Shown: positions 1 through 20,296 of the stretch, piece after piece
Layout of the letters: each line of letters starts with the position of its first letter
Position numbering within the stretch: the stretch's first letter is position 1
Source of the DNA: a virus
DNA: 56,907 nt
Virus record (IMG/VR): IMGVR_UViG_3300046458_000144
Span: 1 to 56,907 of that record
Reading direction: 5' to 3' (one strand)
Notes under the pieces: generated by a model
What the model was told of the DNA's origin: nothing
Seen by the model: the letters and a program-made list of their open reading frames with translations, nothing else
The model's database searches: none
Made by a program: the position numbers and the translations under genes

Positions 1-1110
1 TCAAGGGTTTACGAGCTTTAGACCCCTTGATCCTCGCGACACTGGAACATCTGCGTGAACTGATCGTGAACTCGGCTTTTCACGCAGCCCATCCAAAATC
101 CCCACTGCATCCCTGACCCTGGCCGGCGCTAAGTGCGCGTATCGTTCCGTCATGGTGATGGTCGAGTGCCCTAAAAGATCCCGAACCTCTGCCAGCGCAA
201 CCCCCGCGCTGATCAAATGTGCCGCGCACGTATGGCGCAGATCGTGAATCACGAAATCCTTGATCCCCGCACGCTCGCACGCGACTTCGAAACCCTTCCT
301 TATACACGCCACTCGCTCGCCTGAACTCCTGTTGAAAACCCATGGTGAGGCGGGGCACTTCTCGGCGCGATACGCCATCCTTCCTTTAAGAGCATCCATT
401 GCCCCGTCATTCAGCGGGATACTTCGCCGCTTCCCGGCCTTGGTGTGCTTTCCCTCCAGATAGATCAGTCGGTTGACCAGATCGACCCTTCGCCACTCCA
501 ACCCCAGCATTTCCTCCTTGCGACACCCTGTGTTCACTGCCAAGTGGATGAAGTCATCCAGCAGGTCACCGTTGCGCTGCTGTCTGGCCACCCGGCACAG
601 CGATTCCACTTCTGCCCGGGTCAACCAGCGCACCCGGCCTTCAGGCTCGCGAAGTGTTCGGCCCTTCACCTGGTTGGGCAGTGCCCACTCATATTCCACG
701 TTGCACCAGTTGATCGCCGCTGACAGCGCCGCCAATTCCCGGTTCACCGTGGCGGCCGATACACCCGATTCCATCCGCAGCGTGGTGTACGCCCGAATCT
801 CTTTTCCCCCTAGGTCATTCATCACAACCCCGGTAAAATGCGACCTTAACGGCTTCACCCTGTGCATGGTGGTTTCGAAACTGCGCTGATGCTGGCTGGC
901 GTGGCGCAGGTACGGAATCATCACGTCGTCAAAGGACCGGGGCGGATTCACGCCCCATTCCTTTTCCTTCCAGGCATCCGCCTTGGCCTGCTGCTCTACG
1001 GCTTTCGCCGCCGCATAGTCGCTAGTGCCAGAAGATCGTCGTATTCTTTTTCCGTTTGCTTCGGTGACAAAGATCCACCAATAAGGTGAATCTTTTCTTT
1101 TGTAGGGCAT
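1..1110 (-). CDS. int: Tyrosine-recombinase phage integrase
   Basis: Site-specific recombinase for prophage integration and excision. The 369-residue protein has an N-terminal arm-binding part (about 1-55), a core-binding SAM-like domain (about 58-140) and a C-terminal catalytic domain with the full set of active-site residues: Arg197 (in NTGCRKEE), Lys224, His289 and Arg292 (IHDLRH), His315 (LLGHS) and nucleophile Tyr324. Length is normal for the family. It is the last gene of the leftward operon, and its stop codon is the first base of the window. The start at 1110 keeps the whole arm domain but lies inside the preceding excisionase-like gene, a long overlap that could couple their translation. 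Confidence 0.96.
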   Translation of the reverse strand: MPYKRKDSPYWWIFVTEANGKRIRRSSGTSDYAAAKAVEQQAKADAWKEKEWGVNPPRSFDDVMIPYLRHASQHQRSFETTMHRVKPLRSHFTGVVMNDLGGKEIRAYTTLRMESGVSAATVNRELAALSAAINWCNVEYEWALPNQVKGRTLREPEGRVRWLTRAEVESLCRVARQQRNGDLLDDFIHLAVNTGCRKEEMLGLEWRRVDLVNRLIYLEGKHTKAGKRRSIPLNDGAMDALKGRMAYRAEKCPASPWVFNRSSGERVACIRKGFEVACERAGIKDFVIHDLRHTCAAHLISAGVALAEVRDLLGHSTITMTERYAHLAPARVRDAVGILDGLREKPSSRSVHADVPVSRGSRGLKLVNP

Positions 1111-1316
1111 GTCATTTCCTCCGACATGCCGCCCGCGGCGGTGATACTAGCAGCGGCGGCATCGTCGATCATCTTCTGGAGCTGTTCTTTGTGGACGCGA
1201 ACGCCGCGCTTCATCATTCGGACGGTCGGAATTAGGCCTTCGCCAACCATCCGGTAGGCCGTTGTTCTGCTGCAGCCCAGCATCCCGGCCGCACTCTCTA
1301 CTGAAATCAAACTCAT
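996..1316 (-). CDS. Excisionase-like small helix-turn-helix protein
   Basis: Small DNA-binding protein of 106 residues. Residues 1-50 fit a MerR/AlpA-type winged helix-turn-helix (SVESAAGMLGCSRTTAYRMVGEGLIPTVR pattern, split here by position: helix-turn-helix at about 6-28, wing at about 30-45). Such proteins beside an integrase usually act as excisionase or recombination directionality factor. The start follows GGAG with good spacing. The last 115 bases overlap the integrase start in another frame, so the C-terminal tail (about 70-106) may be unimportant for DNA binding. Excisionase function is inferred from position and fold. Confidence 0.75.
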   Translation of the reverse strand: MSLISVESAAGMLGCSRTTAYRMVGEGLIPTVRMMKRGVRVHKEQLQKMIDDAAAASITAAGGMSEEMTCPTKEKIHLIGGSLSPKQTEKEYDDLLALATMRRRKP

Positions 1317-1352
1317 GTACTGCTCCGGGCCGCGCTGGGCGGCGGAAGGGGT

Positions 1353-1730
1353 TTACTTGGTGAGAAGGTATTCGGTGTCGTATTCGAGCTGAGTAACGCG
1401 GTGGGGACTGATAGATGGAATCGACTGCTTGAATTCATGGATTGAGTTCGGGCCGCCTTTGAAGTCCTTAGCCTCCTTGACGAATGCTTCTTTGAATATT
1501 CGCAGGAGGTGGTCGGCGGCTTTTTCGTAATCCTCTTCCCGGTACCATGCCTCCACACAAATTCCGTCATCCACCGCCCAGACGGTTCGCCGCGGCTGCT
1601 CCTCGGCAGCGGCTATCTTTGCGTCCATCTGCTGGCGGGCGTAACGGAGCTGGTCAAGGGTGAGCTGCTTGATCCACTCATCGGTGCCTATGCTCTGTGT
1701 GTGGCCGTAACTGCATCTAATTTCCGGCAT
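1353..1730 (-). CDS. Hypothetical phage early protein, 125 residues
   Basis: Unrecognised protein in the left operon. I place the start at the internal Met (MPEIRCSYGH) because GAGGA lies six bases upstream; an in-frame Met eight codons earlier has no such site. The protein is mixed helical, with an acidic and aromatic centre (around residues 55-85) and no membrane segment or known motif. The neighbours on the same strand are an excisionase-like gene and another early protein, so it is expressed with the early operon. Confidence 0.7.
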   Translation of the reverse strand: MPEIRCSYGHTQSIGTDEWIKQLTLDQLRYARQQMDAKIAAAEEQPRRTVWAVDDGICVEAWYREEDYEKAADHLLRIFKEAFVKEAKDFKGGPNSIHEFKQSIPSISPHRVTQLEYDTEYLLTK

Positions 1731-1784
1731 AGCGAATCCTCGCCCGCCGATCACCGGCAGGCTGTATATAGAAGAAGGGAAGGG

Positions 1785-2375
1785 TTAGAGGCTTTCGCGC
1801 AGATCGCGAACCCAAGCATTGCGCTCGGCGGTGCGTGCCAGCTCATCGGCCCACTGCCTCTTGTGGTACTCGATGTCTTTGATGGCCTTGGCCTTCGCAG
1901 TTTCCAGCCATTCAGCGCCGGAAAGCTGCTGTGTGGGCTCGTCATAGAAGGTTGTATCGCAGTCCCAATCCAGACTGCCGGTGATCTGCTTGACCATGAA
2001 CTCCTTCAGGCCGGTATGGTTCGGGGTGGGAGCAACCCAGGCCCGAGCGCATACCAGCATTTCTTCGTATTTCTGCTTCAGATCAGCCAGCTCCTTGAGC
2101 CTGGTCAGCCTCCGATCTTCTGACTCCTTGTGCTCGGCTGCGGCCTTAAATCCGCACTCCATGGAGGTCATGGTTTCGAGAGTGGCAAGCAAGGCGCGCG
2201 CTGCGGCCAAGGCCTTGAAGCTGTAATCGCTTGGCTGAAATTCTTCCGGGATCTGATCGCCGCCTGATTTCTCGTCCCGCAGCATGATGCACGCGCCGAA
2301 CGCCCGGGCGCAGTCGAGGGCGAAAGTCTGGAAGCTGATACCGTCTTTGATCGATTCTGTATAACCAGTAGGCAT
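1785..2375 (-). CDS. Hypothetical phage early protein, 196 residues
   Basis: Unrecognised protein with a helical centre that looks able to form a coiled coil (charged heptads around residues 85-115). The start at MPTGYTES follows GAGGACTCATC-ATG, a clear ribosome binding site, rather than the Met 13 codons upstream. The sequence around the start codon resembles that of the methyltransferase at 6490 (shared TCCTCGCC core on the plus strand), suggesting exchanged gene-start cassettes. No enzymatic motif is visible. Confidence 0.7.
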   Translation of the reverse strand: MPTGYTESIKDGISFQTFALDCARAFGACIMLRDEKSGGDQIPEEFQPSDYSFKALAAARALLATLETMTSMECGFKAAAEHKESEDRRLTRLKELADLKQKYEEMLVCARAWVAPTPNHTGLKEFMVKQITGSLDWDCDTTFYDEPTQQLSGAEWLETAKAKAIKDIEYHKRQWADELARTAERNAWVRDLRESL

Positions 2376-2443
2376 GATGAGTCCTCGCCACGCCGCATTC
2401 ACGGCTGACTTCAATTAATGGATTCGGCCAGAACAGCCAGGGA

Positions 2444-2662
2444 TTACTGTTTTCGCGAAGGGATTACTGGATTCGCTGGATAGCCGTCACGAATACGCTC
2501 GGCGATATCTTCAAGCTTTTCGGCCATGTAATACATGTCATTGTTGTCGCGACGGGAGACGACCCCGCACCGGTGCACGTTGCGGCCAATCAATATCCAG
2601 GCCGCGAGCCGGATCAGCGCTGATTCGATCTTTCGCCGGGCAAATCCTTTGAGCGGCAACAT
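2444..2662 (-). CDS. Hypothetical small protein, 72 residues
   Basis: Small basic protein (MLPLKGFARRKIESALIRLA start) with a hydrophobic helix near residues 14-25 and an acidic C-terminal half. The chosen start lies two bases after the stop of the 50-residue gene upstream, and the AGGAGG inside that gene's end serves as ribosome binding site, so translation is probably coupled. No family recognised. Confidence 0.6.
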   Translation of the reverse strand: MLPLKGFARRKIESALIRLAAWILIGRNVHRCGVVSRRDNNDMYYMAEKLEDIAERIRDGYPANPVIPSRKQ

Positions 2663-2664
2663 CC

Positions 2665-2817
2665 TCACGCTGCCTCCTTGGCCCGCTGCCACCAGTGCCA
2701 GGCCCTCGCCATGTACCGGTCCAGATAGCTGCCGCTGGACATGCGCTGGCCTTGGCACCATTCGACGGTGCAGTTGTTGTCTTCGGCGTAGGCCTGTTCG
2801 AATGCTTCGCGGTTCAT
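2665..2817 (-). CDS. Small phage protein, 50 residues
   Basis: A short gene reading MNREAFEQAYAEDNN at its start, with a Trp-rich C-terminal helix (ARAWHWWQRAKEAA). Support: a GGAG site seven bases before the ATG, a stop placed two bases before the next start, and an amphipathic, protein-like composition. It looks like the small helical proteins common in Pseudomonas phage early operons. Function unknown. Confidence 0.65.
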   Translation of the reverse strand: MNREAFEQAYAEDNNCTVEWCQGQRMSSGSYLDRYMARAWHWWQRAKEAA

Positions 2818-2821
2818 GGAG

Positions 2822-3385
2822 TCACTCCGTGCCATTCAGGTAGCAGGGCTCGGTAGCTTCGGCCAGCCATTGGCGCAAACAGCCCACGGAGACGCCTGGG
2901 TCATCTTCGTCTTGCCACTGCTGACCAAGCTCAGCTTCGCTGCATAGCTCCACGTCGTAGTCGTCGGAGTGCTCATGCAGCCAGTCGCCATTGTGCTCGG
3001 CCAAAACTGCCAAGGCCTGGGCGGGATTTTGTGCTGCAACCCAATCCTGATCGCCGACTTTGAAGCAAAGCAGCGGACCATCCTCGGGTTCAAAGGTATA
3101 GCTTTTCGATTTCAAGGCGTCATCTATAGCCTTGTCCAGTTCGTTTCCCGACAAAACATCCTCGTGTCCGGCAATGCCGACGAGTATCCATCGCTCTTCC
3201 GGGAGAGTCTCTGGTGCACTGGCCTTCGGTTCGCGCAGAAATCGGTAGCGGTCTGCAAGAGGGCCGTCTTCGTCAGCGCGCCGCTTCAGGCCTTCCACGT
3301 TTGCGATCAATGTCGAAAGTGAATGATTGCTGCTCAGGCCGAACAGATTGAAGAGCGGTGCCAGTTCAGAATTATGTTGAGGCAT
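2822..3385 (-). CDS. Hypothetical acidic protein, 187 residues
   Basis: Strongly acidic protein without a recognised domain; the C-terminal third is rich in Asp and Glu (DEDDPG region near 160). AAGGA precedes the ATG. A perfect 5-bp GC hairpin with a four-base loop lies at 3398-3411, 13 bases before the start codon, like the leader hairpins of other genes in this operon. Acidic early phage proteins are often DNA mimics or inhibitors, but nothing here proves that. Confidence 0.7.
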   Translation of the reverse strand: MPQHNSELAPLFNLFGLSSNHSLSTLIANVEGLKRRADEDGPLADRYRFLREPKASAPETLPEERWILVGIAGHEDVLSGNELDKAIDDALKSKSYTFEPEDGPLLCFKVGDQDWVAAQNPAQALAVLAEHNGDWLHEHSDDYDVELCSEAELGQQWQDEDDPGVSVGCLRQWLAEATEPCYLNGTE

Positions 3386-3473
3386 GACTTCGTCCTTGCC
3401 GCTGCTGCGGCTGACTTGAGTTGTTAACGAATTTGGTGCCAGAGTCCCGGAAGTTAGCGTTCTCGGGAAGGCG

Positions 3474-3749
3474 TTAGGATTTTGAGTTACTGAAACGTGT
3501 GTTGAGCGCCGAGCCGTTCTCGCGCTGCTTCATTGCCAGCAGCAGGTTGCTCAGCTTCGAACCTTTGGCGAAGACGGTGCCGGGCGGCAACTTCACGTCG
3601 CAGGGCAGAACCTGATCCGCTTGAGCGACAGACCGTTCGACGCATTCCTCGATGACCGACCAGGTTCCCGACGTCAGCCTCATGTCGGAGCGGATCTGCT
3701 CAATCACCCACATCGGTAGCTGGACCTGGATCATGTCGGCTTCGGTCAT
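3474..3749 (-). CDS. Hypothetical small protein, 91 residues
   Basis: Unrecognised protein with an N-terminal pattern (IQVQLPMWVIEQIRSDM) that could be a ribbon-helix-helix-like strand and helix. The start follows GAGAGGATC with good spacing and overlaps the stop of an open frame upstream by ATGA (see 3746-3895). The C-terminal 30 residues are basic. DNA binding is only a guess. Confidence 0.65.
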   Translation of the reverse strand: MTEADMIQVQLPMWVIEQIRSDMRLTSGTWSVIEECVERSVAQADQVLPCDVKLPPGTVFAKGSKLSNLLLAMKQRENGSALNTRFSNSKS

Positions 3750-4527
3750 GGACTGATCCTCTCAACGCTCGGCGCAGGCATGTACATCCCATTGCAGCGC
3801 CATACGCCGAAGTCATCGACAGTGCATTCATACCAGCCGCCACGGTTGCCGTATTGGCCGGGGAATTGGACGAGGCAGGTAATGGTCGGGTGCGCTCAGG
3901 ATATGAACCAGGCAGCGGCGACATCGACGGTTTGGCTGCCTGCTTCGCTCGGATCTGCGCAACCTTCGTCCAGATTCGCGCCAGTTCGATTTCGCCGGCC
4001 GCGAGCATGTCCATTTTGTGCGCCAGGCAGAGCGCTGCAAGCGTGACCATCACGCCGCCGACCTCCTGCGAAGCCTCGCCGGTATCTCGGCCGTAGACAT
4101 AGTCGACGAGCTGATGCGCTTCGCTTGCGGTGGCTCCGCACGCCTGCACCAGCTCCAGCGCTTCTTCAAGGAACCGGTGATTTCGTTCCACCCTGTCGGC
4201 CGATATCGCTGCACCGAAGCACTCCAGCATCCAAGGCAGGACACGGGCCTGAAAAGACTCCTCGCCACACGCATGCGGCTTACCATCTGTGGCCGGAGCG
4301 GACTGGCAATTCATACCCCGCACCTTATCCAGCGCCCCGTTGGCAAGCGACCGAAGCGATGATGGAGACCTTGAGGAGGCCGATGTTGAGATGTATTGGA
4401 GGGTTGATTCCATTTCGGCCTTGGCCTGCTCGCTGGCATTTAGCCGGAGCACGAGGGCGTCGATCTTCCCCTCCATAGTGGAGATAGTCTGGTATGCGAA
4501 CAGCAGCTTTCCGGCTGGCTTACTCAT
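3700..4527 (-). CDS. MazG-like nucleotide pyrophosphohydrolase-type protein with an abnormal C-terminus
   Basis: Residues about 100-205 carry an all-helical MazG-like pattern (NHRFLEEALELVQACG, then HQLVDYVYGR and EVGGVMVTLAALCLAHKMD), the fold that hydrolyses nucleoside triphosphates and is common in phage early regions. The EExxE-type metal-binding pattern is only partly present, so activity is uncertain. Residues 1-90 form a coiled coil. The start (MSKPAGKLL) follows GGAG. After about residue 215 the sequence turns low-complexity and overlaps two other frames that look more protein-like, so the true stop was probably earlier and a frameshift near 3900 has extended it. Confidence 0.65.
   Translation of the reverse strand: MSKPAGKLLFAYQTISTMEGKIDALVLRLNASEQAKAEMESTLQYISTSASSRSPSSLRSLANGALDKVRGMNCQSAPATDGKPHACGEESFQARVLPWMLECFGAAISADRVERNHRFLEEALELVQACGATASEAHQLVDYVYGRDTGEASQEVGGVMVTLAALCLAHKMDMLAAGEIELARIWTKVAQIRAKQAAKPSMSPLPGSYPERTRPLPASSNSPANTATVAAGMNALSMTSAYGAAMGCTCLRRALRGSVHDRSRHDPGPATDVGD
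3746..3895 (-). pseudogene. Small open frame with a protein-like sequence but no start codon
   Basis: Between an in-frame TGA at 3896-3898 and a stop at 3746-3748 lies a 49-codon frame that reads like a real beta-rich phage protein (ITCLVQFPGQYGNRGGWYEC, then a Trp-containing stretch and a Pro-rich end). Its stop overlaps the next gene's ATG as ATGA, typical of a genuine upstream gene. There is no ATG, GTG or TTG; only ATT at 3881-3883. The MazG-like gene runs over it in another frame. Either the start was lost, a rare start is used, or an indel moved the frames apart. Confidence 0.45.
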
Positions 4528-4691
4528 TTCGACTCCATTGCGCGCTGCGCATAGATGGTCTGGCGCTTCTTCGAGCATGTTGTGTGGTTTCCGTGAGAGC
4601 GGTAGCCGGTGCATATCTCGCATCGACCATCAAGGACGAGGCGAGGCATGGGCATGGCTCGGGGTGTGGTGGTGCGGCGGAGGGCGGTCAT
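4524..4691 (-). CDS. Small cysteine-containing (zinc-ribbon-like) protein, 55 residues
   Basis: A tiny gene that overlaps the methyltransferase stop and the MazG-like start by ATGA at both ends, a strong sign that it is real. The product is basic and holds Cys-x2-Cys (CEIC, residues 24-27) and a further Cys at 39 with nearby His, a pattern compatible with a small metal-binding fold. Such proteins often follow phage methyltransferases. The role is unknown. Confidence 0.65.
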   Translation of the reverse strand: MTALRRTTTPRAMPMPRLVLDGRCEICTGYRSHGNHTTCSKKRQTIYAQRAMESK

Positions 4692-6490
4692 GCAGCGAGT
4701 CGCCGATAAAGATCAATGATGTCGGCAGCATTCGCAGCCACCAAGCCCTCGGCTTCGTCCGGGCAAACACTGTTGCCGATCAGCCTGACCCCATCGGTCT
4801 TGTTGACTGACCGCCACTCCTCAGCCCCGGTTACCGGATCAACGAAAAGACCTCGGTCGATGATGTAGCTGTCAGGGAAGCCCTGGGCCTTCTTCAGCTC
4901 TGGCGGCTGCAGCATGCGAAGAGTGATATCGACGAGCACGTAGCCGCCAACCAGCACCATTTCGGCCGGGTCTTTGAAGTGCTCCGGCAGAAACTCATGC
5001 ATGAAGGCCGCGCAACGGCGAGCCCCCTCCATTTGCTCTGGCGTCAGCGTGTCCGGAACCTGAACTGTCTCAATTAATGCGATACGGTCCTTGGTCGGCA
5101 GGGTGTGCATTGGCTCGTTGAGCGATATGCCGTCCTTCTCGTTGCCGTAGTACTTCACCAGGTACGCACTGACGAGCCGCTGATTAGCGCCCGACTGGCA
5201 TATGGTCGAAAGAGGATCGCTCGCGGCGCGACCGTCGCCATCGTAGAACCCGCCGTTTGCCTGCTCAAAGAATGCCGCAGCGACTGCGTGATGCCCGGTG
5301 CTGGTTGCCACGACTGACAGAGGCGCTCGTACGTCAGAACCTACCGAGCCTTTTCGGAGCGTTACCATGGAGGCGGCGACCATTGCGAAATGGCCACCTT
5401 TAACCTGAGCGACCTGTGTACGCAGTGGCTCCTGTACGTCGAAGTTTCGCTGGGCGGACCCGTTGGCACATTCGGTCAGGAAGGTCGCCATCCTTGGGGC
5501 GACCAGTGCGTGATGGGTGCCGCCAGCGCTAATGGTGGAAAGCGCCTCGTCAACACCGTGCGAGCTGGTGTGCGATGGTGAGGTGCCGCGCATCGGCACG
5601 ATAAAGGGCTTGGCGCTGGTCAGAACGTGCCGCCAGCATCCCTTAGCAACCCGTCGCATCGTGTTTCTAGCCATCGGGTTTTTGCGGAAGATCGTTCTTC
5701 CTTCATGGCTCCAGTCAATGCATTCCGCGGCGCTGCGCCATCCCAGCTGATTTCCTGTCGGCTTCTTATGCCGTACCGGCTCAGGCCATACGATGGGCTT
5801 GCCGTCACTGCGAGCTATCAGGTACAACCGCTTGCGAATGGTCGGCGCACCCGCGTTGGCTGCAATCCGTTCGCGCCATTCGACGTTGTAACCAAGTCCG
5901 CGGACGAGGCTGGAGAGTGGCACAAACTCTCCAATTGAATCCTTGATCTCCGCCATATCGGGATGGTCCGCAGCAAGCCCGGTGCTCAGCGCAGCGATGA
6001 ATGCGCGGAACGTGCGGCCTTTCTCGGACTTGATTGGGCGGCCTTCCTCGTCAATTGGCCCCCAATCTGAGAATTCCTCAACGTTCTCCAAAAAGAGAAG
6101 GCGTGGTCGCGTGGCGAATGCCCATCGAATAACAACCCAGGCCAGCCCGCGGACCTTGCGATCACGCGGTGCACCGCCTTTGGCCTTGCTGTGATGACGG
6201 CAATCAGGTGAGGCCCAGAGGATGCCCACGGGCTGACCGCCAGTTGCCAGCACTGGATCGACCTCAAACACGTCGGCCACGTAATGCTTTGTGTTTGGAT
6301 GGTTGGCCCGGTGTACTGCCAGCGCTATTTGGTTGTGGTTTACGGCAATATCTGGCTCGCGGTACGCCCGGGCAATTGCGGTGCTTGCCCCGCCGGCACC
6401 AGCGAACAAATCAACGACCAGCTCTTTCTCGAAAGGAAGGCCCAAGCTGATGGCAGATGCCAGCGAGTGTTTTTTCTGAAATGCAGACAT
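4688..6490 (-). CDS. DNA (cytosine-5) methyltransferase, phage type
   Basis: Large 600-residue C5-cytosine methyltransferase. Visible motifs: motif I DLFAGAGG (27-34) for S-adenosylmethionine, catalytic motif IV with Cys97 in SPDCRHHS instead of the usual PCQ, motif VI LENVEEF (134-140), motif VIII RKRLYLIA and a late GFPDSY/GNSV segment. A large central insertion with repeated (L)STI-type strands (about 300-470) is probably target recognition. It likely methylates phage DNA to evade host restriction; no endonuclease lies nearby, so it is an orphan. The start follows GAGGAATCCTC-ATG. The sequence around that start is nearly identical to the one at 13206. Confidence 0.92.
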   Translation of the reverse strand: MSAFQKKHSLASAISLGLPFEKELVVDLFAGAGGASTAIARAYREPDIAVNHNQIALAVHRANHPNTKHYVADVFEVDPVLATGGQPVGILWASPDCRHHSKAKGGAPRDRKVRGLAWVVIRWAFATRPRLLFLENVEEFSDWGPIDEEGRPIKSEKGRTFRAFIAALSTGLAADHPDMAEIKDSIGEFVPLSSLVRGLGYNVEWRERIAANAGAPTIRKRLYLIARSDGKPIVWPEPVRHKKPTGNQLGWRSAAECIDWSHEGRTIFRKNPMARNTMRRVAKGCWRHVLTSAKPFIVPMRGTSPSHTSSHGVDEALSTISAGGTHHALVAPRMATFLTECANGSAQRNFDVQEPLRTQVAQVKGGHFAMVAASMVTLRKGSVGSDVRAPLSVVATSTGHHAVAAAFFEQANGGFYDGDGRAASDPLSTICQSGANQRLVSAYLVKYYGNEKDGISLNEPMHTLPTKDRIALIETVQVPDTLTPEQMEGARRCAAFMHEFLPEHFKDPAEMVLVGGYVLVDITLRMLQPPELKKAQGFPDSYIIDRGLFVDPVTGAEEWRSVNKTDGVRLIGNSVCPDEAEGLVAANAADIIDLYRRLAA

Positions 6491-6536
6491 GAGGATTCCT
6501 CGCCGGTTTGGCGTGATTCGTTGAAGTGGGGGCTGA

Positions 6537-7820
6537 TTACGCGCTGAAAAGGTTGAGCTGCTGTTCCTGCGAGTGCTGCTCTTGCTGCTGGCGCTGACTT
6601 TTTGCTTTGGCGTGAGCGATTCGCGCGGTGGCGATGGCCATGTATGCGGCGTCCCGCTCTATCCCGATGAAGTCGAAACCCTCGAGTACTGCTGCCTTTC
6701 CGGTGCTGCCCGAGCCCATGAAGGGATCAAGCGCTTTGCCACCTGGTGGAGTGACAAGCCTAAGGAGGTAGGCCATCAGTTCTGTGGGCTTCACCGTGGG
6801 GTGATTGTTGCCCTGTGTTTCGGTGGTCTGAACCTTGCGAAGCGTTGTTCCCTGCTTGAACTGCGGCCCCGGATCGATCAGACCTTCATGGCGATCGGCT
6901 CGGCTCGTCTTGGCGCAGTAGTAGAAGCGTGCGGCGCTGCCAGTGTCGCCATGGAAAGCCCCCTGAATTCGGGAGTACTCGCCGTAAGTGTGTTTGTCCG
7001 GCGAGCTGTCCTCGGTCCCTTTCACTGGCGCTGCTGCTCCCGCGTCGGCGGGGAACATAGCGACCACGACAGCACTGCCATCGTGAATCAGGTTCGCTGG
7101 CCATCGGCCCGGTTTCATGACTCCAACGAAGGGAACGTCCTGTTTGTATGCGCCTGTTGCGTTGACCACGTGACCCGGTGCCATTCGCTTCTGGGAGTAC
7201 TCGCCGCCCTTGGCGTCGTCCGCGTGGATGCGGCAAGCATCGATGTTGATTGCTCCGGTGCCGTGCTCCGCCACATTGGCAGCCACGGTGCCGGGAAACG
7301 GCTTGCGCGCCATGCAGATCGGCTCATGGGCCGGTTTCAGCGCAGTTCCCCAGCCAGCGCGATCGCCTTTCAGGTTGTGCGACTTCGGAAAGCCCGAGCC
7401 GAACACCCACATAATCTGGTCGCGGATCTCAAAGCCCGCCATTTCGATGCCCACAGCCATGTGGTGGTAGGTGCGTGCGGCGGCGAACGACAGCAGGTGT
7501 CCGCCAGGCTTGAGTACTCGCAGCGCTTCCGTTGCCCATTCCAACGTGAAGGCCTGAAAGGCCCGCATACCCGCTGGAGTAAGGTCGTACTTGCCGGCCT
7601 CGGCCGCGATCGAGCGGTGACCGCCATTCGGCCCGCAGGCCCCGGCGTGTGATGGCATGCTTGCCCGGTACGCGGCACGGTCCTCGATGTCCTGGCCATC
7701 CCAGCTTTTGCCCATGAAGCGGATTCCGTACGGCGGGTCGGTTACAACGCTATCCACCGAGTTGGCGGGCAGGCCGCGCATCACCTCCAGGCAGTCGCCC
7801 AGGTGCAGTTGATATTCCAT
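6537..7820 (-). CDS. DNA adenine-N6 or cytosine-N4 methyltransferase (beta-type order)
   Basis: Second orphan methyltransferase, 427 residues. The catalytic motif DPPYG (28-32) precedes the S-adenosylmethionine motif DPFMGSGSTG (365-374), the order of the beta group that methylates exocyclic amino groups. A 300-residue region between them, including the FPKSHN segment, holds the target recognition part. The C-terminus is a Gln-rich tail. It lies just upstream of the C5 enzyme in the same operon, so both probably protect phage DNA. DPPY alone does not decide between adenine and cytosine-N4. Confidence 0.9.
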   Translation of the reverse strand: MEYQLHLGDCLEVMRGLPANSVDSVVTDPPYGIRFMGKSWDGQDIEDRAAYRASMPSHAGACGPNGGHRSIAAEAGKYDLTPAGMRAFQAFTLEWATEALRVLKPGGHLLSFAAARTYHHMAVGIEMAGFEIRDQIMWVFGSGFPKSHNLKGDRAGWGTALKPAHEPICMARKPFPGTVAANVAEHGTGAINIDACRIHADDAKGGEYSQKRMAPGHVVNATGAYKQDVPFVGVMKPGRWPANLIHDGSAVVVAMFPADAGAAAPVKGTEDSSPDKHTYGEYSRIQGAFHGDTGSAARFYYCAKTSRADRHEGLIDPGPQFKQGTTLRKVQTTETQGNNHPTVKPTELMAYLLRLVTPPGGKALDPFMGSGSTGKAAVLEGFDFIGIERDAAYMAIATARIAHAKAKSQRQQQEQHSQEQQLNLFSA

Positions 7821-10338: not shown

Positions 10339-11007
10339 TTAATCCTCCAATCGTTGAGCTTGCGCTCGAGCTCTATCCGCGACCTCGTCAACCATCCTCC
10401 CAAGCTCCAGATTGAACTGGACCAGCTCTTGGTGGAGCATCGCGATGTATTCGTCATCGCGTTTGATGGTCTCGATATACAGTCGGCAGTCTTCATCTTG
10501 GCGTGGGTCGAATGACAGAAAATCCCACCATTCTCTGCCGGTAACGAACATGCAGCCCTGAACCTGCGGCTTGTGTTCGTCGGGCATTCCTTCGAGCCAG
10601 GTGCGGACGTGGACGGCCTCATTGAATGGGCATTTCGACTCAATACCTCCGTCTTCGCCAATCAGCCCGTCCGGCGAGCAGCCCAGCCAGTCGTACTTTG
10701 GATGCACTAAAAAGCCCGATTTGATTACAGTATTTCCGGTCAGGATTTCGTAAAAGTCGTGACTGGACTGCTCAACCTCAGTGCCCCAGGCCATCGATTT
10801 GCTGCTGACTGAATGCTTCGATCTATTGGCGAGGCGTTCAAACGCCAACTCGCGCATGTATGTGGTACGGGCAGCAAGTGGTTTGCGCTTGCCGTGTTTG
10901 TCGCGATCACCCCAGGCGATCACATCCTTGAACCTGCTGGCAGTCAGGCGGCCGCTGCGGTCTTGGTGCCATTGCTCGGTGCGCTGAAGGTCAACTGCGG
11001 CGTTCAT
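10339..11007 (-). CDS. YqaJ-type (lambda exonuclease-like) recombination nuclease
   Basis: 5'-3' exonuclease that makes single-stranded tails for annealing by its RecT partner. The 222-residue protein shows the PD-(D/E)xK core: RTYMRE-like helix, DWLGCSPDGLIGEDGGIESKCP (segments with the acidic residues and ExK near 105-130) and the downstream QVQGCMFVTG helix (about 148-157). Length matches the family. It overlaps RecT by ATGA, so both are made together, as in Rac/lambda-type systems. Confidence 0.92.
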   Translation of the reverse strand: MNAAVDLQRTEQWHQDRSGRLTASRFKDVIAWGDRDKHGKRKPLAARTTYMRELAFERLANRSKHSVSSKSMAWGTEVEQSSHDFYEILTGNTVIKSGFLVHPKYDWLGCSPDGLIGEDGGIESKCPFNEAVHVRTWLEGMPDEHKPQVQGCMFVTGREWWDFLSFDPRQDEDCRLYIETIKRDDEYIAMLHQELVQFNLELGRMVDEVADRARAQAQRLED

Positions 11008-11984
11008 TGCTCGTCGCCTTGAAGATTGCTTCCGGACGTCAAGTCAGAGCCTTCATTGAGCGTTGTAAACTCCGCCTCAATCGTCTGCGCAATCGACTTC
11101 AGCTCACCGTGACGAGTCACGCCAATAGCGCCGCGCTGCTGCGGCTTCAGCGCCTTCCAAGCTTTTTCGTAACCTTCAATGCCTTGCTCTTGAGCTATCG
11201 TCTTCAACTGCTCGAACAAGTTTGCGGTGGCGTCGGTAGTGTCGCCTTGAGGGACTGAGGCAGCGCCAACGTCCGCTGGTTTTTCGTTGGTTGATCTCGG
11301 GGTGACGTCTGTTTCCGGAAGCGTGTATCCATCGTCTAGCTCATCGCGGGTGTACACACCCAAGATCACGTCAGGGCAATATAGGCGAGCCCATTTCTTT
11401 AGGGCTAGATATGCAATTTGCTGCTTTGGATCGTCCGCCCACAGCGTCGAGTTACGGGTTCGCGCCTGAGTCATCAAGGTAGTCAGTTCACGTGGCGAGT
11501 CCTCGCCTACAAAGGTGGCCCAAACGCGAACCCCCAGCCCCTTTTCGTCGCTTATGTTCCAGTTTGGTACGCGATACTTCTTCGGCTGCCCATGGTCATC
11601 GGTTTGCTTTTTGCTTTCGATTTCACGGAAGTTGCCAATGATCTTGTCCCAGTCGCCAAACCATTCGTAATGGATTCGATCAAGTGTCGGCGCTCTAGTG
11701 GTAATGACCGCATTCACAAGCTGTGCTTCATAGCTCAGTTGGCCACCGTTGACGATGAAGGTCTTTTGCGCCACCTGAAAGGGGTTCATGCCCCATTGCA
11801 TGGACTGCATGATTACGGCCATGCAGTCGGCAGTGTTGCCGTGGAAGTGTTTCGGGAGGGTGGTTTTACCGCCCGCCATGATGCCCGCGAGCTCAGTCAT
11901 GGACTGCATGCTTTCGCGATTGAGGATCAGCCCTGTTGGGCTGGTATCCGTCTGGACGGTAGCGATCTGGGTTTGAGCGTTCAT
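11004..11984 (-). CDS. recT: RecT single-strand annealing protein
   Basis: Annealing partner of the exonuclease. The 326-residue sequence has the RecT core at about 20-200 (LPKHFHGNTADCMAVIMQS, KTFIVNGGQLSYEAQL, GVRVWATFVGE, AYLALKKWARLYCPDVILGVY) and a variable acidic C-terminal tail. A hairpin with a perfect 6-bp stem (11998-12016) stands 14 bases before the start codon, with TATGGAG between as ribosome binding site. Role: phage recombination and replication-linked repair. Confidence 0.95.
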   Translation of the reverse strand: MNAQTQIATVQTDTSPTGLILNRESMQSMTELAGIMAGGKTTLPKHFHGNTADCMAVIMQSMQWGMNPFQVAQKTFIVNGGQLSYEAQLVNAVITTRAPTLDRIHYEWFGDWDKIIGNFREIESKKQTDDHGQPKKYRVPNWNISDEKGLGVRVWATFVGEDSPRELTTLMTQARTRNSTLWADDPKQQIAYLALKKWARLYCPDVILGVYTRDELDDGYTLPETDVTPRSTNEKPADVGAASVPQGDTTDATANLFEQLKTIAQEQGIEGYEKAWKALKPQQRGAIGVTRHGELKSIAQTIEAEFTTLNEGSDLTSGSNLQGDEQ

Positions 11985-14024: not shown

Positions 14025-14576
14025 GGTAGCCTCCGTGGTTGGTGTTCAAATCCACTCGCTCAGCCCTCGGCCGCTCGCTATTGCCGATGGGCGCGAGGGG
14101 AGGACTGACGGGTGGATTCGGGAAGGGTGCCCAGGCTCGCTACTGGCGAAGGCCTGGGTTGCAGCATCAAGTTGTCTTCATGCGCTGGGGTGGCCTACCG
14201 GTTGCCCGGCCGATGCGCGGTGACATCGAAGGCCTGCTGTCCGCTGCCTGTTAGGAGATTGGGCGCAGCCTTCAGGCTTGCTGCGCCGCGGGGGGTGATT
14301 CGATGGCCCACTACATGGCTGCTTTCCTTTTCCGGGTTTCAGCTACGGGAATACCCTTTGGTAGCTGGATACAGGTGGGCGGTTATAGGCCGCAGTTTCG
14401 TCCGCATCGGGGTGTGATCTGGCCGGGGCTCAACCGGCATTCGGCGGAAGGGACAGCCCTAAAGACTGCCTGTTGGCACGACCGCTGCCCGAGACTTAGC
14501 TTTCAGATCACCCCCCGATGCGCTCTCTCTGAGAGGATCGGGCAGTTTTCGTCATGCTGACGCTGGCGCTGGTTGT
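14025..14576 (-). ncRNA. Gene-poor, hairpin-rich stretch; possible structured leader or non-coding RNA
   Basis: No convincing reading frame is found on either strand. Structure is plentiful: a hairpin at 14130-14158 (CCCAGGC pairing with GCCTGGG, plus an inner CGC/GCG stem); long complementary arms at 14403-14419 and 14506-14522 (16 of 17 pair); and a local hairpin at 14513-14542 (CCGAT-CTCTC pairing with GAGAG-ATCGG) that uses the same bases as the second long arm. The two folds exclude each other. Strand is assumed leftward from the operon; a rightward RNA is not excluded. Confidence 0.45.
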
Positions 14577-14645
14577 TCAGTTGGCCTGGTATTTATAGGT
14601 ACGAGGATCGGTTTCAGTTGCTAGTGTTTTGCTGGTTTCGTTCAT
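14577..14645 (-). CDS. Leader-hairpin-linked micro-ORF, 22 residues
   Basis: Reads MNETSKTLATETDPRTYKYQ and two more residues. Two facts support it: GGGAG precedes the ATG, and the same type of 40-nt hairpin that precedes the two genes upstream lies 16 bases before this start. It may be a regulatory micro-peptide, or it may mark where the hairpin acts. Confidence 0.5.
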   Translation of the reverse strand: MNETSKTLATETDPRTYKYQAN

Positions 14646-14660
14646 TGCCTTGCTCCCGTG

Positions 14661-14700
14661 GATTTCCAATGCCGCCTCATAGAAGCGGCATCAGTAAATC
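14661..14700 (-). repeat. Leader hairpin element, copy 1
   Basis: 40-nt stem-loop whose outer arms are GATTT and AAATC and whose inner 7-bp stem pairs ATGCCGC with GCGGCAT around a nine-base loop. It ends 16 bases before the start of the micro-ORF at 14645. Same design as copies 2 and 3. Confidence 0.75.
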
Positions 14701-14706
14701 TGTGGG

Positions 14707-14940
14707 TCAGGCGACTGCTTTGCAGTGCTCCAGGTCGACAAAGCCGCTCTTGCCTTCGAGGAAGATCACGGCAGTGTGGCCACCAAAGACATACGCCTCA
14801 CCAGACGAGGCACCGCGATGCGTTTCACCGCGGCCGATGAGGTTTTCGAAGCTGACGAGCGTTCCGACCGGGTGCTTGGCGTTCCAGTTATCGACACGCT
14901 TTTGAAGCTGGGCTGCGGTAGGGCGTTTAGGTGCTGGCAT
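14707..14940 (-). CDS. Small hypothetical phage protein, 77 residues
   Basis: Begins MPAPKRPTAAQLQKRVD; residues 25-70 look like a small SH3- or barrel-type beta domain (VGTLVSFENLIGRG, then EAYVFGGHTAVIFLEG). AGGAGG precedes the ATG, and hairpin copy 2 ends 18 bases upstream. The family is frequent in Pseudomonas phages in my memory, without known function. Confidence 0.7.
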   Translation of the reverse strand: MPAPKRPTAAQLQKRVDNWNAKHPVGTLVSFENLIGRGETHRGASSGEAYVFGGHTAVIFLEGKSGFVDLEHCKAVA

Positions 14941-14957
14941 TGCTGTTTCCTCCTATG

Positions 14958-14997
14958 GATTTCCAAAGCGCCCTCATCGAAGGAGCTTCAGCAAATC
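14958..14997 (-). repeat. Leader hairpin element, copy 2
   Basis: 40-nt stem-loop with GATTT and AAATC outer arms and a weaker inner stem (AAGC-type pairing with GCTT). It ends 18 bases before the start at 14940 and fills almost the whole gap to the gene upstream. Confidence 0.7.
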
Positions 14998-14999
14998 AT

Positions 15000-15191
15000 T
15001 CAGGCAGTCAGCGCGGCCAACTTCTGGCGGCAGTATCGAACCTCAGCCATGCAGCGTTTGGCTTCTTCGCGGTTACCGTTGCGCAGCGCCTGCTTAGCCC
15101 AGTGAGTCCAATCGGCGATGAAGCCGCTCAGGTCAGCGGCGATTGCTGCGTTGGTGCTGACGAACTGACCTTTGTCGTTACGAATAGCCAT
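15000..15191 (-). CDS. First gene of the left operon, 63 residues
   Basis: Reads MAIRNDKGQFVSTNAAIAAD and continues as a helical protein with aromatic residues (FIADWTHWAKQAL) and basic patches. GGAGGG precedes the ATG; hairpin copy 3 ends 18 bases upstream. Its place, first after the leftward promoter and boxA leader, is where lambda keeps its N antiterminator, but there is no arginine-rich N motif and I do not assign that role. Confidence 0.7.
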   Translation of the reverse strand: MAIRNDKGQFVSTNAAIAADLSGFIADWTHWAKQALRNGNREEAKRCMAEVRYCRQKLAALTA

Positions 15192-15208
15192 GGTGAATCC
15201 CTCCGGTT

Positions 15209-15250
15209 GATTTTCCGGATGCCCCTGTCTCCAAGGGCACCGAGAAAATC
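15209..15250 (-). repeat. Leader hairpin element, copy 3
   Basis: 42-nt stem-loop with GATTTT and AAAATC outer arms and an inner TGCCC/GGGCA stem. It ends 18 bases before the start at 15191. This copy is the first encountered by transcription from the leftward promoter. Confidence 0.7.
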
Positions 15251-15325
15251 TGTTTCGAACCAGGCACCGGTCGCTCATCCGGTATCACGCTTCCCACTTC
15301 ACTCGGGGCCTGCGTGTCGCTTGAA

Positions 15326-15345
15326 TGACGGCTTCATGGCCGTCA
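15326..15345 (-). promoter_or_regulatory. Leader hairpin downstream of boxA (second)
   Basis: Perfect 7-bp inverted repeat (TGACGGC and GCCGTCA) with a six-base loop, about 70 bases after boxA in the leftward transcript. May belong to a nut- or put-like antitermination signal. Confidence 0.5.
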
Positions 15346-15379
15346 CACCTGTTCGCAGCTCGCCCTGTTGGGTCTGCTG

Positions 15380-15398
15380 GCCTTCTATGCCTGAAGGC
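15380..15398 (-). promoter_or_regulatory. Leader hairpin downstream of boxA (boxB-like position)
   Basis: Perfect 6-bp inverted repeat (GCCTTC and GAAGGC) with a seven-base loop, starting 15 bases after boxA in the leftward transcript, where a boxB hairpin would be expected. Confidence 0.5.
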
Positions 15399-15413
15399 TC
15401 GGCGGTCTAGTGG

Positions 15414-15425
15414 TGTTAAAGAGCG
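15414..15425 (-). promoter_or_regulatory. rRNA-type boxA antitermination sequence
   Basis: On the minus strand the sequence CGCTCTTTAACA matches the boxA of bacterial rRNA leaders and contains the phage boxA core. It lies about 45 bases after the expected leftward start point, behind a GGGGC/GCCCC hairpin (15429-15444) and ahead of two perfect hairpins. NusB/NusE binding to boxA is established for rRNA and lambdoid leaders; the function here is inferred. Confidence 0.65.
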
Positions 15426-15477
15426 GGCGGGGCCTTTCAGCCCCTGTCGCGGCTTCATGTGTCGTCGCGATGGGTGA

Positions 15478-15506
15478 ACTATCACGTATCGTGTTTATCG
15501 TGTCAA
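15478..15506 (-). promoter_or_regulatory. Leftward early promoter (PL) with repressor operator
   Basis: Minus-strand -35 TTGACA (15501-15506), 17-base spacer, -10 GATAGT (15478-15483). The spacer and -10 are covered by AACACGATACGTGAT (15481-15495), which matches 13 of 15 bases of the operator in the rightward promoter. A second palindrome, TCGTGT-CA-ACACGA, lies at 15498-15511 over the -35. Repression by the CI-like protein is inferred. Confidence 0.75.
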
Positions 15507-15642
15507 CACGAGATGTGATTTATTTATCGAATAAAACACGCTTCCGTGATTGAGCTTCAATTCGTGCCGAGGGGATTTACGCGAGAGAGGGTGTCCGTTA
15601 TCCTCCGCAAAAACTGGATGGATATACAGCAAAGGGGGATCT

Positions 15643-15957
15643 ATGGGCATGGCGCAGATGGCGGCGAAACCAGCAATACGAGTTGAGATGTCCGGGGTAG
15701 AGCGCTTGAGCTTGCGCGTGTCAGAAATGATCAATCACCCAGTCGCGCAGGTTCAGCGCTGGGTGACGATTCACCGCCTGGATACAGATGGGGATCGGGA
15801 GTGGGAGGAGGTGATGGGAGTTTTATCCGCTACGGACGAGCTGGATTTAACGTTCGAGGATGATGGTGCCGTGACGGTGAGGTGGGAGCCGGTTGCGGTG
15901 GAAGATCGGCCGAGCGAGGCGGCAGAGGAGAGGGATGAGGAGCCAGCGCCTTTTTGA
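15643..15957 (+). CDS. DUF1654 family protein
   Basis: 104 residues. Residues 18-82 match the Pseudomonas DUF1654 pattern (RLSLRVSEMINHPVAQVQRW, then EWEEVMGVLSATDELDLTFEDDGAVTVRW). The family occurs in phages and chromosomes of pseudomonads; its function is unknown. The start at MGMAQ follows AAAGGGGG. The gene diverges from the leftward operon, so it may be under the same operator region. The acidic tail (85-104) is probably disordered. Confidence 0.85.
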   Translation: MGMAQMAAKPAIRVEMSGVERLSLRVSEMINHPVAQVQRWVTIHRLDTDGDREWEEVMGVLSATDELDLTFEDDGAVTVRWEPVAVEDRPSEAAEERDEEPAPF

Positions 15958-16050: not shown

Positions 16051-16308
16051 ATGATTTCTCATCTCGAATTGCGGCACATCGTCGAGACGGCATTCTTACC
16101 AAAAAAATGCATCTGCACTATAGAGCCGGCCGGATCGATGACGATTCAGATCTTTGATCAAAACTCTGACATGGAGGAGTTGACGGTTACAGGAATAGAT
16201 TCTTCTCGCCTTGTTTCAAGCCGTGCGATCGCCGCGCTTATAGGCGAAATCAAAGAAGAGGCGAGAATTGGCCATATCAGGGCAACGGCGCGCCGACGCC
16301 AGGCATGA
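16051..16308 (+). CDS. DUF1652 family protein
   Basis: 85 residues, matching the Pseudomonas DUF1652 family along most of its length (LRHIVETAFLPKKCICTIEP, then SMTIQIFDQ and ELTVTGIDSSRLVSSRAIAALIGEI). The family is small, mostly chromosomal in pseudomonads and uncharacterised. AAGGAGGG precedes the ATG. Its presence between repressor and left operon suggests host-derived lysogenic cargo. Confidence 0.85.
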   Translation: MISHLELRHIVETAFLPKKCICTIEPAGSMTIQIFDQNSDMEELTVTGIDSSRLVSSRAIAALIGEIKEEARIGHIRATARRRQA

Positions 16309-19459: not shown

Positions 19460-20296
19460 TCACACCGGCTGCCCATTCCACACATACAGCACGCGAGCCA
19501 GGATGTGGGTATCGTCGACCCGGATATCTTCTGGATCGTGGTGCTTGTTGTCCGAGATCATCTTGAACAGGGTTTTACCTTTCTTCTGGAGCCGCTTCAC
19601 GTAGAGCATCTCATCGTGGGAGAAAAGGTAGATGCCGTCTCCCGTGAACTCCCGGATCGTGACGTCGACCAGGAGAGGGTCGCGGTCCTTGATCGTCGGA
19701 GCCATCGACTGACCCCACCCGGTGATCATCTTGAGGTGGAAGTGTTCTTTGAAGGTGACGCCCATCTCGCGCAGATGCTTGGGGCTGACCCTGATGTCTT
19801 GGAGCATTTCTGGGTATTCGTGCGGGATCTGCCCGCCGCCCATTGCGGCGCGCACGTCATAGTGAGCGATCCACACTTCATCGCCTACTTGGCCGGGTCG
19901 CGAGAAGTCGACAGTGATGACGTTACTAGCAGGGGAAGACTGACCCTCTGCGACCTCAAGTATCTTCCGCTTTTGTTCTGCAGAAAGGCCCCCGGCCTTG
20001 TCGAGCATCTCTTGCAAGAGCTCATTAGTTGATGCGGATCGCCTGACGTCAGTCGGTATCCGCATCTCATCAATGCTGTGTACTCCCTCTTTATGCACGG
20101 GGAGCAGATCCGTAAAGCTGGTGCCGAGCGCCGATGCAATCGTCTGGATATCTGCCAGCGTCGGTTCACGCGTCCCCGACTCGTAGTTGCCTACGCGAGA
20201 CTGCGATTTCCACCCGCACGCATCCGCCAGCTGAGCCTGGGAAATGCCTGCCGCTTTTCTGAAGCGCTTGATGCGCTGACCTAAAGATTCGTTCAT
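19460..20296 (-). CDS. CI-like repressor with S24 peptidase domain
   Basis: Lysogeny repressor of 278 residues. Residues 5-66 form a Cro/CI-type helix-turn-helix (ISQAQLADACGWKSQSRVGNYESG). The C-terminal LexA/S24 domain carries Ser197 (GQSMAP) and Lys234 (LYVKRL), 37 residues apart as in LexA. No Ala-Gly or Cys-Gly dipeptide stands in the expected cleavage region (about 145-165 reads DVRAAMGGG), so self-cleavage on SOS is not certain. It diverges from the Cro-like gene, and both early promoters hold a shared operator. The ATG has a weak ribosome site. Confidence 0.93.
   Translation of the reverse strand: MNESLGQRIKRFRKAAGISQAQLADACGWKSQSRVGNYESGTREPTLADIQTIASALGTSFTDLLPVHKEGVHSIDEMRIPTDVRRSASTNELLQEMLDKAGGLSAEQKRKILEVAEGQSSPASNVITVDFSRPGQVGDEVWIAHYDVRAAMGGGQIPHEYPEMLQDIRVSPKHLREMGVTFKEHFHLKMITGWGQSMAPTIKDRDPLLVDVTIREFTGDGIYLFSHDEMLYVKRLQKKGKTLFKMISDNKHHDPEDIRVDDTHILARVLYVWNGQPV

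Follow-up and report, generated by a model that had tools for sequence, protein, structure and literature searches.

A family of RNA hairpins located before the early genes of Pseudomonas phages

Intercistronic RNA hairpins close to the starts of phage genes are a kind of element already known from T7 and lambda. The RNase III sites of the T7 early region (R0.3, R0.5, R1, R1.1 and R1.3) are mutually similar hairpins which are repeated between the early cistrons, before their starts. In lambda the RNA between nutL and N is highly structured, and Nus factors together with N at nutL repress the translation of N, probably via a leader that is tethered in a loop (PMC5725501). The lambda boxA is located 189 nucleotides before the canonical N start. 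According to a 2002 study by Wilson et al. that is cited there, RNase III reportedly modulates this repression of N translation. The SAS and ESAS of cluster K mycobacteriophages are inverted-repeat elements found just 5' of the starts of unrelated small non-structural genes; the SAS is a sequence of 13 bp, and the repeats of the ESAS do not pair in the RNA according to the authors (PMC3203893). Among Pseudomonas phages, the early region of the T7-like phage gh-1 contains stem-loops R1-R5 which are putative RNase III sites by the annotation of the depositor. To our knowledge, early post-transcriptional control in Pseudomonas phages has been little studied.

The window analysed here is a stretch of viral DNA of 56,907 nucleotides (IMG/VR record IMGVR_UViG_3300046458_000144). 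It carries three hairpins of 40-42 nucleotides on the minus strand (HP1-HP3), in the left (pL) early operon of a Pseudomonas phage of the lambdoid type, since RecT/RecE-like genes (10339-11984) and a CI-like repressor (19460-20296) are encoded on the same strand. In the direction of transcription the features of the operon are:

15478-15506, minus strand: putative pL promoter, TTGACA and GATAGT with a 17-nucleotide spacer (10 of 12 matches in a consensus scan)
15414-15425, minus strand: boxA, CGCTCTTTAACA, with an exact core match at 15417-15424
15251-15413, minus strand: structured left-operon leader from boxA to HP1, homologous to the leaders of loci L329 and L266
15250-15209, minus strand: HP1, class I hairpin with the GNRA tip GGAGAC, -26.0 kcal/mol, 67.6 bits with covariance model R1, BLASTN matches in other phages
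15000-15191, minus strand: ORF A, 63 codons, Shine-Dalgarno (SD) sequence GGAGG at 15204-15200, homologues in L315 and L368
14997-14958, minus strand: HP2, class II hairpin with the tip UUC-GAU-GAG, inner stem interrupted by a single U x C mismatch, -16.4 kcal/mol, 61.7 bits with covariance model R2
14707-14940, minus strand: ORF B, 77 codons, PHROG 9165-like, function unknown
14700-14661, minus strand: HP3, class II hairpin with the tip UUC-UAU-GAG, -22.4 kcal/mol, 71.6 bits with covariance model R2
14577-14645, minus strand: ORF C, reading frame of 22 codons (MNETSKTLATETDPRTYKYQAN), short homologue in L293

The putative pL is the sole promoter-like site that the consensus scan found in 14400-15650, and boxA lies about 45 nucleotides past the presumed start of its transcript and 233 nucleotides before the start of ORF A. 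With pL, a boxA roughly 190-235 nucleotides before the first gene, a structured leader and a stem near the SD, the arrangement is reminiscent of lambda pL-nutL-N (PMC5725501), whereas the hairpins described here are short and local and recur before later genes. HP1 forms the end of the leader, before ORF A, HP2 begins 2 nucleotides past the ORF A stop and HP3 begins 6 nucleotides past that of ORF B. The three stem-loops with GATTT/AAATC closing arms that the initial annotation had placed here are confirmed on the minus strand: all three possess these arms, and their predicted folds are far more stable than those of shuffled sequences (z of -6.5, -3.5 and -7.1 for HP1, HP2 and HP3; none of 200 dinucleotide shuffles was as stable). 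Their claimed position just before the ribosome binding sites and starts of tiny genes likewise holds, as the distance from the stem to the ATG (15191, 14940 and 14645) is 17, 17 and 15 nucleotides for HP1, HP2 and HP3, respectively. The SD sits inside this gap and hence outside the hairpin, and short folds show it with little or no pairing.

When the 741-nucleotide region was compared with 50,697 phage records by BLASTN, the matches were confined to the hairpins and a few flanking bases, showed 87-98% identity and were located before other genes. HP3 with its flanks is 98% identical over 53 nucleotides to phages MR13 and MR15 (E 5e-16) and HP1 is 96-98% identical over 51-54 nucleotides to psageK9 and Cruim01, which excludes chance. 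HP2 and HP3 share 78% identity over 51 nucleotides, so that the clearest case of a changed stem sequence is HP1 compared with either of these. A simple two-arm pattern scan of the window gave little above chance, the family being visible only with the inner stem and tip. Short BLASTN queries extended the matches to D3, PAJU2, Tr60_Ab31 and AUS531phi as well as phiPSA1, MD8, phi297 and others. The wider search scanned contigs from viruses and bacteria for sequence patterns, of which the class II DNA pattern returned mostly chance matches when judged by folding, and used the two covariance models. R1 and R2 find exactly three sense-strand copies in the window, which are HP1-HP3. Scans and models together gave 356 non-overlapping matches, 297 of them in distinct contexts and representing 146 distinct hairpins.

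In the folds and models the hairpins have stems of 18-19 bp that are capped by a tetraloop or short tip, with two main tips, UUG-GNRA-CAG (class I) and UUC-NAY-GAG (class II). An A bulge near the base is present in 99 of the 146 distinct hairpins, the tips are mostly of the GNRA type, and a wobble position (U.G) close to the tip is conserved as such. The sequence TTCACTG in the hairpins resembles the type I-F CRISPR repeat, a likeness that was dismissed as the lower stem varies. Neither in the window nor in 16 related loci does any Rfam 15 family reach the gathering threshold, and relaxed thresholds yielded nothing credible. In the freely available full texts searched, the family, its restriction to Pseudomonas and its coupling to boxA leaders appear to be undescribed.

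The initial annotation had taken the conserved shape and position of stems with changed sequence as a sign of selection on RNA structure and had proposed to look for compensating changes in related leaders. Such changes are indeed found far above shuffled and slid controls. For class I, two-sided changes are seen in 15 of the 19 pairs and amount to 169 cells, compared with 38.5 +/- 4.9 after shuffling and at most 34 with slid partners; for class II they are seen in 13 of the 18 pairs and amount to 126 cells, compared with 44.7 +/- 4.8 after shuffling. These counts lean towards structure because the alignments were fitted to the models and the first training set was partly fold-selected. An alignment made by MAFFT only, with no model fit, has two-sided changes in 8 of the 19 pairs and a covariation score of 0.278 versus 0.121. 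The variants of the closing arm compensate as well (GATTC/GAATC, GCATC/GATGC and CTTC/GAAG). In 141 of 145 hairpins the fold gains more stability on the sense than on the antisense strand, owing to the conserved U.G pairs, and the kept wobble together with the stability of the sense strand points to an RNA on the coding strand rather than a DNA palindrome. The structure of the hairpin family is well supported. The strong support for pairing sets the family apart from the ESAS, and neither the GGGATAGGAGCCC motif of the SAS/ESAS nor inverted repeats devoid of RNA pairing were found, the 3' flank of the hairpins being AACC-GGAGG. An alternative explanation is that the hairpins are modular linkers, short sequences shared at gene borders that promote the swapping of early genes by recombination, and that their structure is incidental. 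The limitation of inter-phage homology to about 50 nucleotides around the hairpin, the occurrence of the same gene with different hairpin classes and the RecT/RecE-like genes in the same operon agree with such a role, but the compensatory changes and strand-specific wobbles demand an explanation at the RNA level, which makes the linker improbable and disfavoured as the primary function.

Across the family, a SD and the start codon of an ORF of at least 20 codons follow within 40 nucleotides of the hairpin in 239 of 288 contexts (83%), compared with 15.6% of positions drawn at random from these loci. The start codon is mostly located 15-17 nucleotides from the stem, and the core of the SD lies 3-5 nucleotides from it in 153 of 297 contexts; some copies, namely those in D3, PAJU2 and AUS531phi, are not directly followed by a SD or start. 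The 237 proteins encoded downstream, typically of 60-100 residues, fall into 104 unrelated clusters, which implies that the element is not specific to a particular gene. In preceding unrelated small genes the hairpins are similar to the mycobacteriophage SAS/ESAS. At L338 (hairpin 2027-2074, minus strand) the next gene encodes a small CsrA/RsmA-like protein (MLILTRKAGETIVIND...) from a cluster of 10. Binding of CsrA/RsmA to the hairpins, considered because of this CsrA-like downstream gene, was rejected since GGA is not conserved in the tips. A passive role may be envisaged in which the hairpin, neither cleaved nor bound, prevents upstream RNA from pairing with the SD and guards the 3' end of the upstream cistron. 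This would account for very stable stems placed between stop and SD with a 4-nucleotide spacing, but it requires no conserved tip, bulge, wobble or near-identical sequence across phages, and as the sole function it seems rather unlikely.

The hairpins also stand apart from the individual genes of the window, the homologues of ORFs A, B and C in other phages being preceded, in the corresponding position, by hairpins of another sequence class. The ORF A homologues in L315 and L368 lie behind hairpins of two different classes, and the short ORF C homologue in L293 (MNETSKTPATEPDLRKYK) follows a class I hairpin, unlike the class II HP3, for which reason the 22-codon ORF C looks like a real gene. 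Homologous leaders that lack the stems, which would speak against the initial annotation, were found in part: the ORF B homologues in L002, L007 and L336 are preceded by a hairpin, which is absent from the distant relatives in L003, L004 and L005 (63-74% identity, contigs of 82-83 kb). The element is therefore a property of the operon type and not an obligate part of ORF B.

A perfect boxA occurs within 800 nucleotides upstream of 185 of 272 hairpins, compared with 15% of random positions in the same loci. In 124 of 193 arrays the first hairpin has such a boxA no more than 500 nucleotides upstream. The distance is mostly 205-235 nucleotides, similar to the distance of about 200 nucleotides between boxA and the first pL gene in leaders of the lambda nutL-N type. 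There is one boxA per operon and not one per hairpin, and the leaders also contain hairpins. The leaders between boxA and the first hairpin, of 115-300 nucleotides (in the window 15413-15251, minus strand, and in L329, L266, L024, L057 and L283), are themselves conserved and structured, comprise several types that cannot be aligned with one another, and possibly represent an undescribed antitermination or leader RNA. Compensatory changes distinguish the window leader from those of L329 and L266, for instance GCCTGC/GCAGGC versus GCCTTC/GAAGGC. No consensus fold was obtained from single alignments of the common (mid) and 'long' leader groups, which is explained by the mixing of several leader types. 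The boxA upstream of the arrays and the GNRA tip, which recalls boxB, could suggest that each hairpin is itself a transcription signal in the form of a terminator, an attenuator or a nut/boxB-like antitermination site. However, the hairpins are followed by AACC and the SD with no U tract as expected of an intrinsic terminator, terminator-like sites with T tracts near genes occur only elsewhere, and the single boxA per operon does not match the number of hairpins, all of which renders a transcription signal very improbable.

Class I hairpins were found in 49 of 199 Pseudomonas genomes and in none of 368 genomes of other Gammaproteobacteria, and class II hairpins in 31 of the 199, the counts taking in chromosomal copies whether or not they lie in prophages. 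In the scan of bacterial contigs, 52 of 55 stretches are named Pseudomonas. The distribution is not that of a REP-type repeat, with 1-4 matches per positive genome and none in 150 of the 199 Pseudomonas genomes. One labelled exception is L269 (NZ_VWXI01000001, Pantoea sp. Cy-639), where the hairpin has the form that is commonest in Pseudomonas; this may be a case of misnaming or transfer. L011 (PP438408) and L321, recorded as phages of Leptolyngbya boryana, have two hairpins and a boxA leader; the nearest named relatives of their helicase are Pseudomonas phage proteins, about 55% identical, which makes the recorded cyanobacterial host doubtful enough to be checked. In L019 (1001-1040, Klebsiella phage Kp_Pokalde_001), one of the Drulisviruses, the class II tip CUUCUAUGAGG occurs on a hairpin that is located directly before a SD and annotated as a terminator; this hairpin was left out of the counts owing to its marginal E of 0.004. 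Homologous hairpins also flank early genes of the lytic T7-like Ghunaviruses, and gene 4 of Kurepalu-2 lies between two of them. The stretch of gh-1 has no match to R2, though other Ghunaviruses do. As the Ghunaviruses share no evident regulator with the temperate phages, a host factor is indicated.

It is proposed, tentatively and with close to an even chance of being correct, that the hairpins are processing or insulating sites for a host factor, probably RNase III, which separate the ribosome binding site of each cistron from the upstream RNA. The stem would be read by a factor common to all Pseudomonas, most likely RNase III. A cut at the first hairpin could free the first gene from a leader tethered by boxA and Nus factors, in the way suggested for the N leader of lambda, and further cuts would divide the left transcript, which is polycistronic, into short messages, each with a clean ribosome binding site, comparable to the T7 early region. 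Even without a cut, the hairpin would shield the SD from being covered by upstream RNA. A 12-bp stem capped by a tetraloop is a substrate that E. coli RNase III cuts (PMC8708148), and the stems of 18-19 bp, which exceed this minimum, make cutting plausible. Their small loops and intercistronic location in an early polycistronic transcript are also as expected of RNase III sites, and in being repeated, mutually similar and placed before starts they resemble those of T7. Similarity to the T7 sites does not extend to the sequence, R2 having no match in T7 800-6600, and the T7 sites have a wide internal loop in place of the one-base bulge found here, where cleavage is a prediction. Several properties argue against processing: the A bulge, U.G pair and GNRA tip exceed the needs of RNase III, processing does not call for a SD so close to the stem, and the copies in D3, PAJU2 and AUS531phi precede no SD or start. 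RNase III is nearly universal, and yet the element is limited mostly to Pseudomonas phages.

Because the conserved bulge, wobble and tip go beyond what RNase III needs, a specific binding protein is a serious rival. The hairpins may be translational operators of an early-gene regulon, in which a phage or Pseudomonas-specific RNA-binding protein binds the tip and the stem with its bulged A and either keeps ribosomes off the adjacent SD or attracts them to it. The recognition-like features, the closeness of the SD core to the stem and the Pseudomonas-only distribution are in support of this, but the hairpin does not include the SD, the tips come in at least two very different forms and no candidate protein was found; the same element in unrelated temperate and T7-like phages moreover speaks against a phage-specific protein and makes a host protein likelier. 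A translational operator is thus possible but has a clearly smaller probability than processing. Of the roles named in the initial annotation, RNase-type processing fits the anatomy better and a phage-encoded translational regulator less well. It is also conceivable, with about the same probability as a translational operator, that a Pseudomonas-specific RNA-binding factor and the boxA/Nus complex together gate early-gene translation, which would constitute a regulon in both temperate lambdoid and lytic T7-like phages.

Many early phage genes that are short and uncharacterised have their starts marked by these hairpins, which are thereby useful for annotation. The family is well defined and common, with class I in a quarter of the sampled Pseudomonas genomes, and has no Rfam entry, and it links boxA leaders, RNA processing and translation in Pseudomonas phages. 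Just past ORF C the window contains a 19-nucleotide inverted repeat (14403-14421 and 14504-14522) which is 95% complementary and encloses a loop of 82 nucleotides. On the other side of the operon, genes for DUF1654 (15550-15957, plus strand) and DUF1652 (16051-16308, plus strand) are transcribed away from it, and AUS531phi likewise has a DUF1654 gene near its hairpin.
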